From Methanolobus sp. WCC4 (lineage in GTDB: Archaea; Halobacteriota; Methanosarcinia; Methanosarcinales; Methanosarcinaceae), in contig NZ_CP150629.1 of assembly GCF_038022665.1 (NCBI RefSeq), positions 558,001-622,000 of the forward strand: a stretch of 64,000 nt of DNA, in the 5' to 3' direction. Shown piece after piece: positions 23,751 through 52,290 of this stretch. Both the position numbers and the translations under genes were made by a program. The notes below the pieces were generated by a model. The model was given only the letters and a program-made list of their open reading frames with translations. It was not told the origin of the DNA and did not search any database. Each line of letters begins with the position of its first letter. Position 1 is the first letter of the stretch.

Positions 23751-25177
<1,427 letters not shown>

Positions 25178-25466: not shown

Positions 25467-25485
25467 ATTACAACGGCGTTGTAAT
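25467..25485. promoter_or_regulatory. Palindromic operator candidate, copy 1
   Basis: ATTACAAC-GGC-GTTGTAAT is a perfect inverted repeat with 8-bp arms and a 3-bp spacer. It lies in the shared upstream region of pylS (minus) and the mini-ORF/permease pair (plus). The same palindrome occurs at 30947-30969 before mtmC1 and is not seen elsewhere in the window. Confidence 0.6.
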
Positions 25486-25554: not shown

Positions 25555-25733
25555 TTATTGCAGGAATGGACCGGCAACGTTCTTTTGTAGATAACTATTA
25601 TTCAGATAACTATTACCGTTATTTTTAAATATTATTTACAGGAATTACTATTCCGCAAAATATAAGTACCGTGCTTGAAGTCACATATATATTTATTGTT
25701 CAGGTCGGCTGCTTTGAATCACTAGGTGTTAGA

Positions 25734-25883
25734 ATGAACAAAATGATCTTTACAAAGGAATCCGTGGATCAGCATGTCCACGAGTATTGTCCTGTAGCTG
25801 GAATATAGGCCGGAACTGGCTACCCGATGGGTATGCCTCTTTCCCGGAGAACGAACCTGAGCTATCATGAGGTGGGTGCATGA
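25734..25883 (+). CDS. Pyrrolysine-containing mini-ORF, mtbB-related, coupled to the permease
   Basis: A 49-codon frame with an in-frame TAG at 25806-25808 (codon 25). It starts at ATG 25734 with AGGTG five bases upstream and a TATA run at 25684-25695. After the TAG come 24 codons, ending at TGA 25881-25883, which overlaps the permease ATG as ATGA. The sequence around the TAG, V-A-G-I-(Pyl)-A-G-T-G-Y-P-M-G-M-P-L-S, matches MtbB at its pyrrolysine, V-D-G-I-(Pyl)[12 protein letters not shown], also at DNA level. The early I-F-T-K-E resembles MtbB I-F-M-T-K-E. It may be an internally deleted mtbB kept as a UAG-sensing leader peptide, or just a remnant. The similarity and the overlap are seen; the function is inference. 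Confidence 0.55.
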
Positions 25884-27418
25884 GCAATAAAACGGATGCA
25901 TCCCAGTCCGGTATCGACTGGGAACATGGTGCCCAGTGTGCTAAGAATATGTGTGATCCTCAGGAACTTGAGAGATCCATCGACTGGAAACAGGGTCTTG
26001 CAATAGCATTAGGTGTTCCACTGCTTATCCTTCCTTCCATCGGATATCTTACAAGCTATGTCTGGTCCTTCGCAATAGTAATATGGGGAGCCACTGTGCT
26101 CCTTGGTTTTTTACAGAACTTCGCATTCGGAGAACTGGCAACGGTTTTCCCAAAGGCATCGGGTCTTCCTGGTTATACGCAAACGGTCTTTGGTTCGGAT
26201 AAGGACAAGAACAACAAAGGAAAGTTCAAGTTCGGTAAGTTCATTGGTGGTTTCAGTGCCTGGAGCTACTGGTTCGGATGGAGTCCTGTCCTTGCGATCT
26301 ATGCCATACTGATCTCAAGTTACATTCAGGGAATGGTTCCCTCACTTGCAGGTATCAACTCAACACTTATGGCACTGGTAGTAGGAGGTTTCATCTTCGG
26401 TTCCCTTGCGATCATCAATGCAAAGGGACTCAAGAACGGAGCAGCTGCCGGAGTTATCTTAGCTGCTATTTCCCTGGTACCTCTTCTGGTAATTACCATT
26501 GCACCGTTCTTTACAGGCGATTTCCAGATGGCGAACATCACAAATTCATGGTTCCCTACAGACTGGAGCTGGGACTGGGAGCACATACTTATCCTTCTCG
26601 GACTTCTGGCAATGGCTGAATGGAGTGCTGCTGCATGGGAAACCGCTGCTATCTATGGTCCTGAATACAAGAAGCCGAATTCCGATATACCAAAAGCACT
26701 GCTTGTCTGTGGGGCAATATGCCTTGTTCTTTACGTACTTGTACAGACATCCGTTATTGGTGCTCTCGGTGTTGAAGGAGTACTTGCAGAGCCTATCTCA
26801 CCAATGCTTCCACTGGCAAACATGTCACTTGGTCCTATTGGTGCTTCCATTTCAATTGTAATGTTGATAGGTGCAATGCTTCTGATCATCCAGACAGCTT
26901 TCCTTTCATCTGCACGTTCCATATATTCAATGTCAGTTGAAGGTAATCTGCCATCAGTTCTGAGTAAGTTGAACAAGCACGGCCATCCAATGAATGCTAT
27001 GCTCGCTGATGCAGGATTCAACATGTTCCTTATCCTTCTTGGAACACCGACAGCTATCCTTGCAGCATCTGCAATTGGTTACATCTGTGCAAACGGTATC
27101 AGTCTTTACACCTATGTAAAGGTCAGGAACGATCCTGAACTCTCTAAGCTGGAAAGACCTTTCAAGGCTCCAAGGGGATGGAAGAAAGTTGCTCTGGCAA
27201 CAACTATACTGAACACTCCATTCTTCCTGATAGGTATAATCTACCTCAACAGTCTTGAACTTGGATGGGCAACAACCGGTGTTGGATTCTTCATGCTCTG
27301 TCTCTTCATTCCACTCTGGATGTATTCCCAGCGTGAGAACAGGAACAGAATGCCTGCAGTTGCAGGACACAGGGAACATGGCATATTTGAACCGGAACCG
27401 GTTCCTTTAGAGGAATGA
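25880..27418 (+). CDS. APC-family permease, probable methylamine transporter
   Basis: A 512-residue protein with about 12-14 membrane segments. It shows the APC superfamily layout: helix 1 G-L-A-I-A-L-G-V-P-L-L-I-L-P-S-I-G-Y, then a long series of hydrophobic helices with small loops and a hydrophilic C-terminal tail. APC permeases linked to methylamine methyltransferases occur in Methanosarcina and are thought to import methylamines, and the mtbB-like mini-ORF in front points to dimethylamine. The ATG follows GAGGTGGG and overlaps the mini-ORF stop. Transport of another amine or amino acid cannot be excluded. Confidence 0.82.
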   Translation: MSNKTDASQSGIDWEHGAQCAKNMCDPQELERSIDWKQGLAIALGVPLLILPSIGYLTSYVWSFAIVIWGATVLLGFLQNFAFGELATVFPKASGLPGYTQTVFGSDKDKNNKGKFKFGKFIGGFSAWSYWFGWSPVLAIYAILISSYIQGMVPSLAGINSTLMALVVGGFIFGSLAIINAKGLKNGAAAGVILAAISLVPLLVITIAPFFTGDFQMANITNSWFPTDWSWDWEHILILLGLLAMAEWSAAAWETAAIYGPEYKKPNSDIPKALLVCGAICLVLYVLVQTSVIGALGVEGVLAEPISPMLPLANMSLGPIGASISIVMLIGAMLLIIQTAFLSSARSIYSMSVEGNLPSVLSKLNKHGHPMNAMLADAGFNMFLILLGTPTAILAASAIGYICANGISLYTYVKVRNDPELSKLERPFKAPRGWKKVALATTILNTPFFLIGIIYLNSLELGWATTGVGFFMLCLFIPLWMYSQRENRNRMPAVAGHREHGIFEPEPVPLEE

Positions 27419-30946: not shown

Positions 30947-30969
30947 TCATTACAACAGCGTTGTAATGA
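30947..30969. promoter_or_regulatory. Palindromic operator candidate, copy 2
   Basis: TCATTACAAC-AGC-GTTGTAATGA is a perfect inverted repeat with 10-bp arms and a 3-bp spacer between the sensor kinase gene and mtmC1. An extra half-like TTGTAATG lies at 30931-30938. The core equals the palindrome upstream of pylS and the permease. Confidence 0.65.
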
Positions 30970-31824: not shown

Positions 31825-33201
31825 ATGACATTCGCAAGATCAATGGATTGTTTTGAGTTCTATGAGAGAGCAAAGAAGGGAGAGAAGACAACCCAGGATG
31901 ACTGGGACCTTATGACCATCCCAATGAAGGCAATGGAACTCAAGCAGAAGTACAACCTTGACTTCAAGGGTGAGTTCGTACCAACTGACAAGGACATGAT
32001 GGAGAACCTCTTCAAGGCAGGTTTCGAGATGCTCCTTGACTGTGGTATCTTCTGTACAGACACAAGCCGTGTAGTGAAGTACACAGAGGACGAGATCTGG
32101 GACGCTATCAACAACGTCCAGAAAGAGTTCACATTGGGAACCGGCAGGGACGCTGTCAGGGTCCAGAAGAGAAGTGTTGGTGACAAGAGAAAGCCAATAG
32201 TCCAGGGTGGTCCAACAGGTTCCCCAATTTCCGAGGACATGTTCATGCCAGTTCACATGAGCTATGCTCTTGAGAAGGAAGTCGACACAATTGTCAACGG
32301 TGTCATGATGACAGTCCGTGGCAAGCCACCTATCCCAAAGAGCCCATATGAGGTCCTTGCAGCAAAGACCGAGACCAGGCTCATCAAGGCAGCAGCAGCA
32401 ATGGCCGGAAGGCCAGGCATGGGCATATAGGGACCAGAGACTTCCCTGTCCGCTCAGGGAAATATCTCTGCTGACTGTGCCGGTGGCATGGTTTGCAGTG
32501 ACAGTCACGAAGTATCCCAGCTCAATGAGCTTAAGATCGACCTTGATGCTATCAGTGTGATGGCACACTATCAGGGTAACAGTGACATCATCATGGATGA
32601 ACAGATGCCTATCTTTGGTGGATATGCCGGTGGCATAGAAGAAACCACAATAGTCAACATCGCAACCCACATCAACGCATTTGTAATGAGCAATGCAAGC
32701 TGGCACCTTGACGGTCCGGTCCACATCCGCTGGGGATCCACAAACACCCGTGAGACCCTCATGATCGCAGGATGGGCATGTGCAACTATCTCAGAGTTCA
32801 CAGACATGATCTCAGGTAACCAGTACTACCCATGTGCAGGTCCATGTACCGAGATGTGTCTGCTCGAAGCATCCGCTCAGTCCATCACCGACACAGCTTC
32901 AGGCCGTGAGATCCTCTCCGGTGTAGCATCCGCAAAGGGTGTCGTTCAGGACAAGACAACCGGTATGGAAGCAAGGATGATGGGAGAGGTTGCAAGGGCA
33001 ACAGCAGGAATGGATATTTCTGAGGTCAACAAGGTCCTTGATGCTCTTGTCAGTTCCTATGAAGGCAACTATGCGAATGCACCACAGGGTAAGACCTTCC
33101 AGGAATGTTACGACATTGCTACCGTAACACCAACTGACGAGTACATGAAGGTCTACGCTGATGCTCGCAGGAAGCTCGAAGAGTTCGGTCTTTCATTCTA
33201 A
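31825..33201 (+). CDS. mtmB: Monomethylamine methyltransferase MtmB (copy 1), UAG-encoded pyrrolysine at 202
   Basis: One continuous 458-residue gene in which TAG at 32428-32430 is read as pyrrolysine 202, the same length and position as in M. barkeri MtmB. The enzyme methylates Co(I)-MtmC with monomethylamine; pyrrolysine binds and presents the amine. The part after TAG is clearly coding and conserved (G-P-E-T-S-L-S-A-Q-G-N and C-T-E-M-C-L-L-E-A-S-A-Q), so this is not a pseudogene. The true stop is TAA at 33199-33201. It is very close to mtmB2 at 53062. Confidence 0.96.
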
Positions 33202-35799: not shown

Positions 35800-36145
35800 T
35801 ACTATTTTTACAAACGAAAAGAAGGTATATTATCCACTAAGGAACTGAGATAATAAAACAAAAAAGGTTTTGTCATCATGTGACTGTGTCACACAATGAT
35901 ACTATATGGCGGAAACCCCGGGAATTTAACCCGACTGAACGGATTTAGAGTCCATTCGATCAACATGATCTGATTTCCATGATGATTGAATCTAACTCTT
36001 AGTAGGGTTTATTCATATTTGTATTTTACGCTTAAATTGCCATTTATTCTGTTAATAGTGCTTATTGATATCGTTCTTATAAGATATTCTCTATTTATCA
36101 TACGCAATATACATATAATCGAAGTAAAAAGAAGACAAAAAGTCT
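35800..36145. other. Intergenic region around pylT
   Basis: Apart from the tRNA-Pyl gene, this 346-bp stretch between the M18 peptidase and the HyuA-like gene is AT-rich. It shows only the likely pylT promoter (about 36003-36020). No other gene is seen. Confidence 0.5.
35907..35978 (-). tRNA. pylT: tRNA-Pyl, anticodon CUA (amber suppressor)
   Basis: A 72-nt tRNA on the minus strand, with CCA encoded (its last base is at 35907). It shows tRNA-Pyl traits: acceptor GGAAATC pairing with GGTTTCC (one G-U), a short D arm GATC-ATGTT-GATC, a six-pair anticodon stem ATGGA/TCCGTT-like with loop CTCTAAA giving anticodon CUA, a very short variable region, and a T arm CGGGTTAAATTCCCG without the usual TTC. 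The anticodon loop lies near 35944-35950. It is about 10.8 kb from pylS and on the same strand. A possible TATA sequence (AATATGAATA on the minus strand) lies 30-40 bp upstream. Confidence 0.95.
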
Positions 36146-45322: not shown

Positions 45323-45954
45323 TCTTGTGAACTCCTTTCTATCTTCTCTTTTTCAATGGACAGTTGTCCATATCCATATTATATATATTTTTTGCACGCC
45401 CAATTAACGCCGTGAATCCAAATAACAGTATCAGTATGCTTGTTTTTATTATGAGCTCCATATGTACATAGGATGTTTCTAGTAAAATTTATATACGATA
45501 ATTATGTGATGTGATCTTATCTGTAAGGTGCTTTGCAAAGTAATGTGAAAATATACTGAAACCATCCTCTTTTTCATTTTAGATATAAATGAAAGTGGAT
45601 TTTCAGAAAAGTTTATATATTATATATGCTGCCTGGTCGATGGTAAAGTATTTATGCTACAAAGCAATCTGTATCTTTGCACAGATGGGCATATTCTGGG
45701 TGTTTATTGAAAAACACTATCTACTGAAGTTATGTATCTAAATGCTCTCCTTTTTTGTTCGTCATCTTTATATACTCTTCCTCAAAACACTCCAATAGCA
45801 AAATATAAATACTGAATTAGCAAGAAAAGCTTATATACATGCACATTATACCTATTCAGCAGGAACAAACTGCTCAATGCATGTTCAATCCTTTCCGGGA
45901 ATCTCTCAAGTATCTAAATTATCCCGGAAAAATTCAAATTGGAGGTTAAAGAAA
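45323..45954. promoter_or_regulatory. mttB promoter region: Divergent regulatory region of HyuA paralogue 3 and the mtt operon
   Basis: A 632-bp spacer. On the plus strand, TATA-like boxes occur at 45488-45497, 45611-45626, 45766-45777, 45801-45810 and 45829-45840. The last fits a TSS near 45862 and a leader of about 90 nt ending in TTGGAGGTT. On the minus strand, a TATA run (45376-45392) and the TGGAC-AGTT-GTCCA inverted repeat (45357-45370) serve the HyuA gene. A shared ACAGTATCA element lies at 45425-45452. Confidence 0.5.
45425..45452 (+). repeat. ACAGTATCA element, copy 2
   Basis: ACAGTATCAGTATGCTTG followed by a T-run and ATTAT, in the divergent spacer upstream of mttB. Confidence 0.4.
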
Positions 45955-50886: not shown

Positions 50887-52290
50887 ATGACAACAGAATA
50901 CAAATTGAGAATGGGAGATGGAAAGCGCATCTTCATGACAAAGGAGCAGATAATCGCTGACCTTAAGGAAGGTATGGCAGATGCTGCAGACCTTGGTGAC
51001 ATTCCAGATCTAACTGAAGATGAGATCGACAAGCTCGTAGATATACTTACCATGCCTTCAAGGATGGTCGGTGTCGAGCAGGGTATGGAAGTACCTGTGA
51101 CCCACGATATCGGAACCATCAGGATCGATGGTGACCAGGGTAACAGTGGTGTAGGTATTCCATCCAGCAGGCTCGTCGGTGCAATGATGCACGAGCGTGC
51201 ATTTGGTGCAGACACAATGGAACTTGGTCATATCGACTACAGTTACAAGCCTGCAAAGCCTGTTATTGCACAGGAGATGCAGACAATGGAAGTCTGCCAG
51301 CAGAACATGGTTGTCCCTCTCCTTTACGGTGCAATGCCTAACATGGGTCTTTACTACACACCTGATGGTCCTTTCGAGAACCCTGGTGACCTTATGAAGG
51401 CATTCAAGATCGACGAAGCAAGGGAGTCCATGGAACACTCTGCAAAGCACCTTACAAGGGACATTGTCTGGATCATGCAGAGGATGATGTCATCAGGTTC
51501 CGATGGTGTGAACTTCGATACTATCGGTGCAGCAGGTGACGGTGACATGTATGCATCACTCCATGCTATCGAAGCACTGAGAAAGCAGTTCCCTGATATC
51601 TACATTGAAGCAGGTATGGCAGGAGAACTTATGCTTGGAATGCACGGTGAGCTTGAATATGATGGTGTGACCCTTGCAGGTCTCTGGCCACATGAGCAGG
51701 CAGCACTTGTTGCAAAGGCAGGAGCAAACGTTTTTGGTCCTGTTGTGAACACCAATACCAGCAAAACATCAGCATGGAACCTTGGAAGGGCTGTTACATT
51801 CATCAAACAGGCTGTTAAAGATTCAACAATTCCATGTCATGTGAACATGGGTATGGGTGTCGGTGGTATCCCAATGCTCGAGACCCCTACAATTGACGCT
51901 GTATCAAGAGCCAGCAAGGCGATGGTAGAAATTGCTGGCGTGGATGGTATATAGATAGGGGTCGGCGACCCGATGGGTATGCCGATCTCCCACATAATGA
52001 CCTCCGGAATGAGCGGGATCAGAGCAGCAGGTGACCTTGTTGCAAGAATGGAATTCTCAAAGGGTATGAGAATTGGAGAAGCAAAGGATTACGTTGCAAA
52101 GAAGCTGGACGTTACCACTGCAGACCTCAGTGACGAGTATGTGATGAGGGAACTGAGAGAAGAGCTCGGTATCGGTGTAATCACTTCAGTTGCAGGTGCT
52201 CCAAAGGGAATCGCAGCTAAGATGAACATCGAGAAACTGCTCGACCTTAAGATCAACAGCTGTGAGAAGTTCAGGGAACAGATAGCCTGA
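50887..52290 (+). CDS. mtbB: Dimethylamine methyltransferase MtbB, UAG-encoded pyrrolysine at 356
   Basis: A 467-residue gene with TAG at 51952-51954 read as pyrrolysine 356, the same length and position as M. barkeri MtbB. It transfers one methyl group from dimethylamine to Co(I)-MtbC, leaving monomethylamine for MtmB. The sequence past TAG continues in frame ([13 protein letters not shown]) to TGA at 52288-52290. The same amber context recurs in the mini-ORF at 25734. mtmC2 follows after about 100 bp. Confidence 0.96.

Follow-up and report, generated by a model that had tools for sequence, protein, structure and literature searches.

Does a 49-codon reading frame that contains an in-frame TAG, and whose end overlaps the start of an APC-family permease gene, control that gene by way of pyrrolysine, an amino acid known in nature from a few enzymes, most of them methyltransferases of methylamines? 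The frame lies at positions 25734-25883 (+) of a stretch of 64,000 nucleotides from Methanolobus sp. WCC4 that we analysed as a whole (the window). It reads MNKMIFTKESVDQHVHEYCPVAGIOAGTGYPMGMPLSRRTNLSYHEVGA*, where O stands at the TAG, codon 25 (25806-25808, +), which is predicted to be decoded either as pyrrolysine or as a stop and would be the switch point. A Shine-Dalgarno sequence, AGGTG (25724-25728, +), precedes the leader ATG by five nucleotides, and the leader TGA (25881-25883) overlaps the permease ATG (25880) as ATGA. An initial annotation of this DNA had listed the frame, its Shine-Dalgarno, the TAG codon and the overlap, and each of these sequence claims was borne out. The TATA box that it had named is also present upstream, within a BRE/TATA-like box, CCGCAAAATATAAGTA (25653-25668, +), which includes the TATA-like AAAATATAAGTA (about 25657-25668) and is kept in most species that carry the leader; its conservation in the DNA alignment suggests that it acts as the promoter.

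The permease (25880-27418, +; 512 residues) matches Pfam AA_permease_2 (E=2e-45). Its top NCBIfam match is a TMAO permease model, which it matches far below the cut-off, and we therefore left its substrate unassigned. Its own Shine-Dalgarno, GAGGTG (25869-25874, +), lies within leader codons and is kept as GRGGTG in 7/7 leader species. The divergent neighbour of the leader-permease unit is pylS (23751-25082, −), present in all 27 genomes of the genus, and the genes on the minus strand with it (25082-20766) are those that we take, from their position and general knowledge, to be pylB, pylC and pylD. The window as a whole is a pyrrolysine/methylamine cluster, with mtmB at 31825 and 53062, mttB at 45742 and a full-length mtbB at 50887-52290 (+; TIGR02368 dimeth_PyL, 930 bits), and the UAGs of its methyltransferase genes match PYLIS_1, _2 and _3 in Rfam; the PYLIS_2 match of mtbB (51952-52051) scores 108.8 bits. 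ARAGORN reported no tRNA over the window. The sequence GGACTCTAAATCCGTT, which we take to be that of the tRNA-Pyl anticodon arm, has an exact match at 35938-35953 (−), which is probably pylT and lies some 11 kb away from pylS.

A search of 112 genomes of the family Methanosarcinaceae recovered a leader homologue immediately upstream of the permease in seven, the window included, all of the one genus Methanolobus; two of these are the Methanolobus vulcani strains B1d and PL 12/M. Matches in the six other genomes had E values from 8e-22 to 1e-3 per genome, and the permeases of the seven are about 94% identical or more. All seven leaders are 49 codons long, with TAG at codon 25, AGGTG or AGGTA before the ATG and a TGA overlapping the permease ATG, and in 7/7 species this overlap has the spacing of archaeal coupled pairs (−4 or −1 nt). 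The layout is of the attenuator type: a short ORF with its own Shine-Dalgarno and a single conserved UAG, ahead of a permease in a methylamine cluster.

According to the initial annotation, the frame would be a remnant without function if it were broken after the TAG while the permease was kept, or if close relatives had the permease without it. None of the seven leaders is broken in this way, so the leader survives that test. Relatives of the second kind do exist, in part: a permease at 88% identity or more occurs in ten genomes of the genus, of which three lack the leader, namely M. profundi (G043, locus L065), G042 and G051. In G042 the permease ATG aligns to the position of the leader ATG, and in M. 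profundi a full mtbC-mtbB pair stands ahead of the permease. On the permease tree, the leader group takes in M. profundi but neither G042 nor G051; support for its inner branches is weak. The topology of the pylS tree differs from that of the permease tree, from which we infer that leader and permease have probably moved between species together, as a unit.

Other candidates for a leader were rejected. A match in G052 arose by chance, within an unrelated gene; G044 and G048 contain larger fragments, which are pieces of genes; and sub-threshold PYLIS_2 matches in G041 and G059 are not leader-like; no leader-size mini-frames from mtmB, mttB or other mtbB copies were found in the genus. At one locus in G048 (L173, G048:C149:51000-53500), the 3' part of mtbB recurs behind the gene as a partial copy, and gene and copy both have PYLIS_2; this is either a partial duplication in tandem or an error of assembly. 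A divergent mtbC-mtbB pair, with an MtbB about 46% identical and a PYLIS_2 match, occurs in G062 (L171, contig C4) and G040 (L172, contig C10); in G062 it shares its contig with a second copy of pylS.

To see what selection keeps, we counted parsimony changes on the tree of the seven leaders and used permease fourfold sites, which show 1.06 changes per site, as the neutral yardstick. Leader codons 2-44 outside the core described below changed at 0.88 per site (87 changes in 99 nt). A 30-nt core around the UAG (codons 23-25 and 29-35), GGAATATAG - N9 - GGCNACCCGATGGGTANGCC(Y) at 25800-25838 (+), changed at only 0.10 per site: 3 changes were counted, where the fourfold rate predicts about 32. 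The limits of this core were set after inspection of the data, and the fair value is therefore that of a 21-nt window scan of the leader (permutation p=0.008); third positions in the core are also slower than the remaining leader third positions (p=0.005). The invariant residues are G23, I24, O25, G29, P31, M32, G33 and P35. Outside the core, the nonsynonymous fraction (0.757) is close to that under random substitution (0.738, P=0.63), and no purifying selection on amino acids was seen there across the seven leaders, codons 2-21 and 37-44 being unconstrained. Eight pairwise comparisons gave no indel in the 147-nt leader, and 0-9 per pair, several in most, in the 135 nt upstream. The open frame by itself is weak evidence, since no new stop arises by chance in about 0.14-0.24 of simulations. 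Length, frame and UAG context are retained while the peptide drifts, which, on these substitution patterns, is what would be expected of a regulatory leader ORF.

The core is also where the leader resembles mtbB. This resemblance, noted in the initial annotation, is real both in protein (GIO-x-G-x-G-x-PMGMP) and in DNA (ACCCGATGGGTATGCC), and we regard it as beyond chance because a homologue stands in the same place in six other Methanolobus genomes and the best Rfam match of the region is PYLIS_2 (RF02509), the pyrrolysine insertion sequence of mtbB. The match (25806-25899, +) scores 23.4 bits (E=0.0046), below the gathering threshold of 36 bits, which the leaders of the relatives miss as well: four other species match at the same position with 21.7-27.0 bits, and G061 with 17.4 bits. 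In five of seven species the match begins right at the leader UAG, which is in frame with the ATG and the TGA.

We compared 50 distinct mtbB genes, every one of which has TAG. Their synonymous variation is sharply reduced between codons −2 and +14, counted from the UAG (about −1.0 bit versus −0.3 elsewhere), which suggests that mtbB carries a cis element at the nucleotide level there, consistent with Rfam PYLIS_2. The frozen core of the leader consists of the same nucleotides as this peak of constraint. The leader retains ATATAG, a free spacer of 9 nt and then GGC-N-ACCCGAUGGGUA-N-GCC (also written GGC-N-ACCCGATGGGTA-N-GCC), the same block that follows the UAG in the mtbB element (a related analysis is given in PMC3639795). 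It differs from that element in standing in a 49-codon ORF and not in a methyltransferase gene, in its sub-threshold score and in not keeping the nine nucleotides after the UAG. A hairpin is predicted after the UAG (25812-25844, +), with an inner stem GGC-N-ACCC/GGGU-NN-GCC and an outer stem GGAA/UUCC. It is possible in all seven leaders; its seven inner pairs are invariant and its outer stem shows one compensatory pair, and covariation across the seven leaders did not exceed that of shuffles. Folding of the whole leader is not exceptional (z=0.3). In mtmB, according to a review (PMC2933860), replacement of PYLIS lowers the full-length product, yet the element is not essential. The Ile codon ahead of the mtbB UAG is ATA in 49/50 genes, which adds to the support for a cis element in mtbB itself.

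The initial annotation had derived the whole frame from mtbB. This holds for the UAG core, with the mtbB-like part limited to about 15 codons around the UAG in the middle of the leader, but not for the 5' third (25734-25775, +), which matches the start of mtbC instead. In an ungapped test, the leader start agrees with the Shine-Dalgarno and start of mtbC at 33-34/50 nt in G060, G062 and G046 (background 13 ± 3.2), the best or second-best of ~19,000 offsets; the window's own leader has drifted further (22/50 nt). We used the ungapped test, as gapped local alignment of the leader region with the sequence upstream of M. profundi mtbC gave a score too permissive to be informative. A search of the leader against NCBIfam, the MtbB model TIGR02368 included, gave no match.

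M. profundi has pylS (reverse), mtbC, mtbB, permease and regulator, while the window, G062 and G046 have pylS (reverse), leader and permease, followed by the regulator in the window and in G046. The simplest account of the origin, on this comparison, would be that deletions shrank an mtbC-mtbB pair ahead of the permease into a single 49-codon frame; alternatively, pieces of mtbC and mtbB may have been inserted at the start of a leaderless permease like that of G042. Given that mtbC-mtbB-permease stands beside pylS in M. profundi and that mtbB lies directly ahead of related permeases in many genomes, the leader would keep the permease behind a UAG frame. In passing, mtbC (L065:1905-1931; L033:6124-6150) has an apparent ATT start (GGAGGTATAATTATTAGCAAAGAAGAAATG), the nearest ATG being five codons downstream; either the start codon is an unusual one or the start has been misplaced.

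How might such a frame act on the permease? In the reading that we prefer, the leader ORF, apparently composed of an mtbC start and the mtbB UAG core and running into the start of the permease, would be loaded with ribosomes at its own Shine-Dalgarno, and these would arrive at the UAG of codon 25. With enough pyrrolysyl-tRNA, and helped by the copied, PYLIS_2-like context from mtbB, pyrrolysine would be inserted, and the ribosomes reading through would reach the TGA of the ATGA and restart on the permease. Without pyrrolysyl-tRNA they would terminate at the UAG with 71 nt still to go before the permease start, a distance probably too great for termination-reinitiation. In Haloferax, coupled genes are most often arranged with a −4 overlap (PMC10666635; review PMC12548453), and added stops that leave gaps of about 20 nt almost abolish coupling (PMC10666635). 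Taken with the two distances in the leader, 71 nt after a stop at the UAG versus a −4 overlap after readthrough, these data suggest that the leader is built like a gate, which decoding of the UAG would open. Permease output past a closed gate would be what its own Shine-Dalgarno recruits, and polarity on the untranslated RNA, for which FttA is named as the likely cause in archaea (PMC12548453), may lower it further. Translation across the frame would matter, and the peptide would not.

The initial annotation had stated that ribosomes reach the permease only if the TAG is read. This is too strong: the permease has its own Shine-Dalgarno, and no masking structure was found. Masking of that site by RNA structure is not supported, its predicted accessibility being at least as high as that of shuffled controls, and neither a terminator/antiterminator pair nor a masked Shine-Dalgarno, the alternative structures of attenuators, was found in the leader. 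As no masking was found, some uncoupled initiation at the permease, perhaps a substantial amount, is to be expected, and the gate would probably be a graded one. The proposal of a UAG-gated attenuator itself fared better. Conserved architecture, frozen UAG context, absence of indels and near-neutral change in the remainder of the frame across seven species make it the best-supported reading at present, with its regulatory step argued from sequence. We consider a leader ORF that ties permease translation to pyrrolysine decoding through its UAG to be the best explanation of the locus, and a probable one. A shade less firmly, we favour the view that it is a natural switch that senses the decoding of UAG as pyrrolysine, in which a minimal mtbB cassette in the leader would allow the transporter to be translated only with charged pyrrolysyl-tRNA.

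Neutral evolution of the peptide outside the core, the chance of 0.14-0.24 that stops are simply absent and the existence of leaderless relatives would all suit a functionless remnant, that is, a deletion scar of mtbC-mtbB that is open and overlapping by chance and is kept for the promoter and the permease Shine-Dalgarno. We think this unlikely, as a scar does not account for a core in which synonymous sites are frozen too, with a tenth of the changes expected, nor for a TAG kept in 7/7 leaders and a complete lack of indels over the 147 nt. The decayed mtbB that the initial annotation had offered as its alternative is likewise unlikely for the core. Gene conversion from mtbB could hardly have kept the core uniform, because clade-specific differences from mtbB persist in it (GGCT/GGCA versus GGCG).

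That the core is also the most conserved stretch of protein would fit a functional micropeptide, whose pyrrolysine-bearing loop, GIO-x2-3-G-x-PMGMP, acts by itself, for example by mimicking the active-site loop of MtbB. Such a peptide is quite improbable, for the synonymous sites of the core are equally frozen, codons 2-21 and 37-44 are free of amino-acid constraint and no family model matches. Conservation at the nucleotide level and the possible hairpin lend themselves to a non-coding RNA element instead, in which the core, by binding a protein or by folding, controls transcription or the stability of the mRNA while the frame itself plays no part. The constancy of the 49-codon length, frame, Shine-Dalgarno and ATGA overlap, together with the weak structure and covariation within controls, leaves this the least probable of the alternatives. 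The sign of control could also be the opposite: with the permease Shine-Dalgarno lying inside leader codons and without special masking, ribosomes reading through might occupy or disturb it, so that abundant pyrrolysyl-tRNA represses the permease. This carries as little weight with us as the micropeptide, since archaeal ATGA overlaps favour reinitiation (PMC10666635).

The attenuators of trp, his and similar operons consist of a short ORF whose control codon reports the charging of one tRNA, before a gene of the same pathway. The Methanolobus leader likewise is a short ORF with a control codon before a pathway gene; unlike them, its codon is a recoded stop at which ribosomes would terminate and not stall, and no attenuator hairpin was found. 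In the selAB leader of E. coli, a SECIS-like cis element for insertion of a rare amino acid is put to regulatory use in a 5' region, whereas the Methanolobus leader concerns another amino acid and involves a translated frame. The mtbC-mtbB-permease operons of Methanosarcinaceae, such as that of M. profundi (divergent from pylS), also place the permease behind a UAG frame, but do so with full methyltransferase and corrinoid genes in place of a 49-codon leader. Archaeal ATGA termination-reinitiation has the same −4 overlap, and in Haloferax upstream stops almost abolish the coupling (PMC10666635); in the leader, by contrast, the premature stop would be a natural, conditionally decoded codon in a short frame. 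By analogy, the leader would join the principle of leader peptides that sense an amino acid to that of ATGA coupling, with a recoded stop as its control codon.

Our search of an open-access library, in which subscription journals are mostly missing, found no earlier report of a leader peptide or upstream ORF with pyrrolysine. The rules of two earlier computational screens make it likely that they would pass over the leader: one demanded 100 nt in frame after the UAG (PMC3639795), and the other set aside one unknown candidate as probably a false positive, in part because it had an extension of roughly 20 residues (PMC1914089). If the proposal is true, the regulatory use of a pyrrolysine UAG would be new. 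The seven leaders also form a natural mutagenesis series for the nucleotides that are important near a pyrrolysine UAG, which bears on whether mtbB has a working insertion element, and the leader construct is short and amenable to reporters in a methanogen host.

A FilR1-like gene (PF08350; 27529-28323, −) lies directly 3' of the permease, an adjacency kept in several relatives, and is a candidate regulator of the leader-permease unit. Upstream of the leader, a perfect palindrome, TTACAACGGCGTTGTAA (TTACAAC-NN-CGTTGTAA; 25468-25484), is a possible operator. The pattern TTACAACNNCGTTGTAA has only two matches in the window, this one and one at 30950-30966, where a methylamine corrinoid protein gene lies downstream; shared by the two, it could be an operator of a methylamine regulon. 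A stretch similar to the palindrome lies upstream of mtbC in M. profundi.
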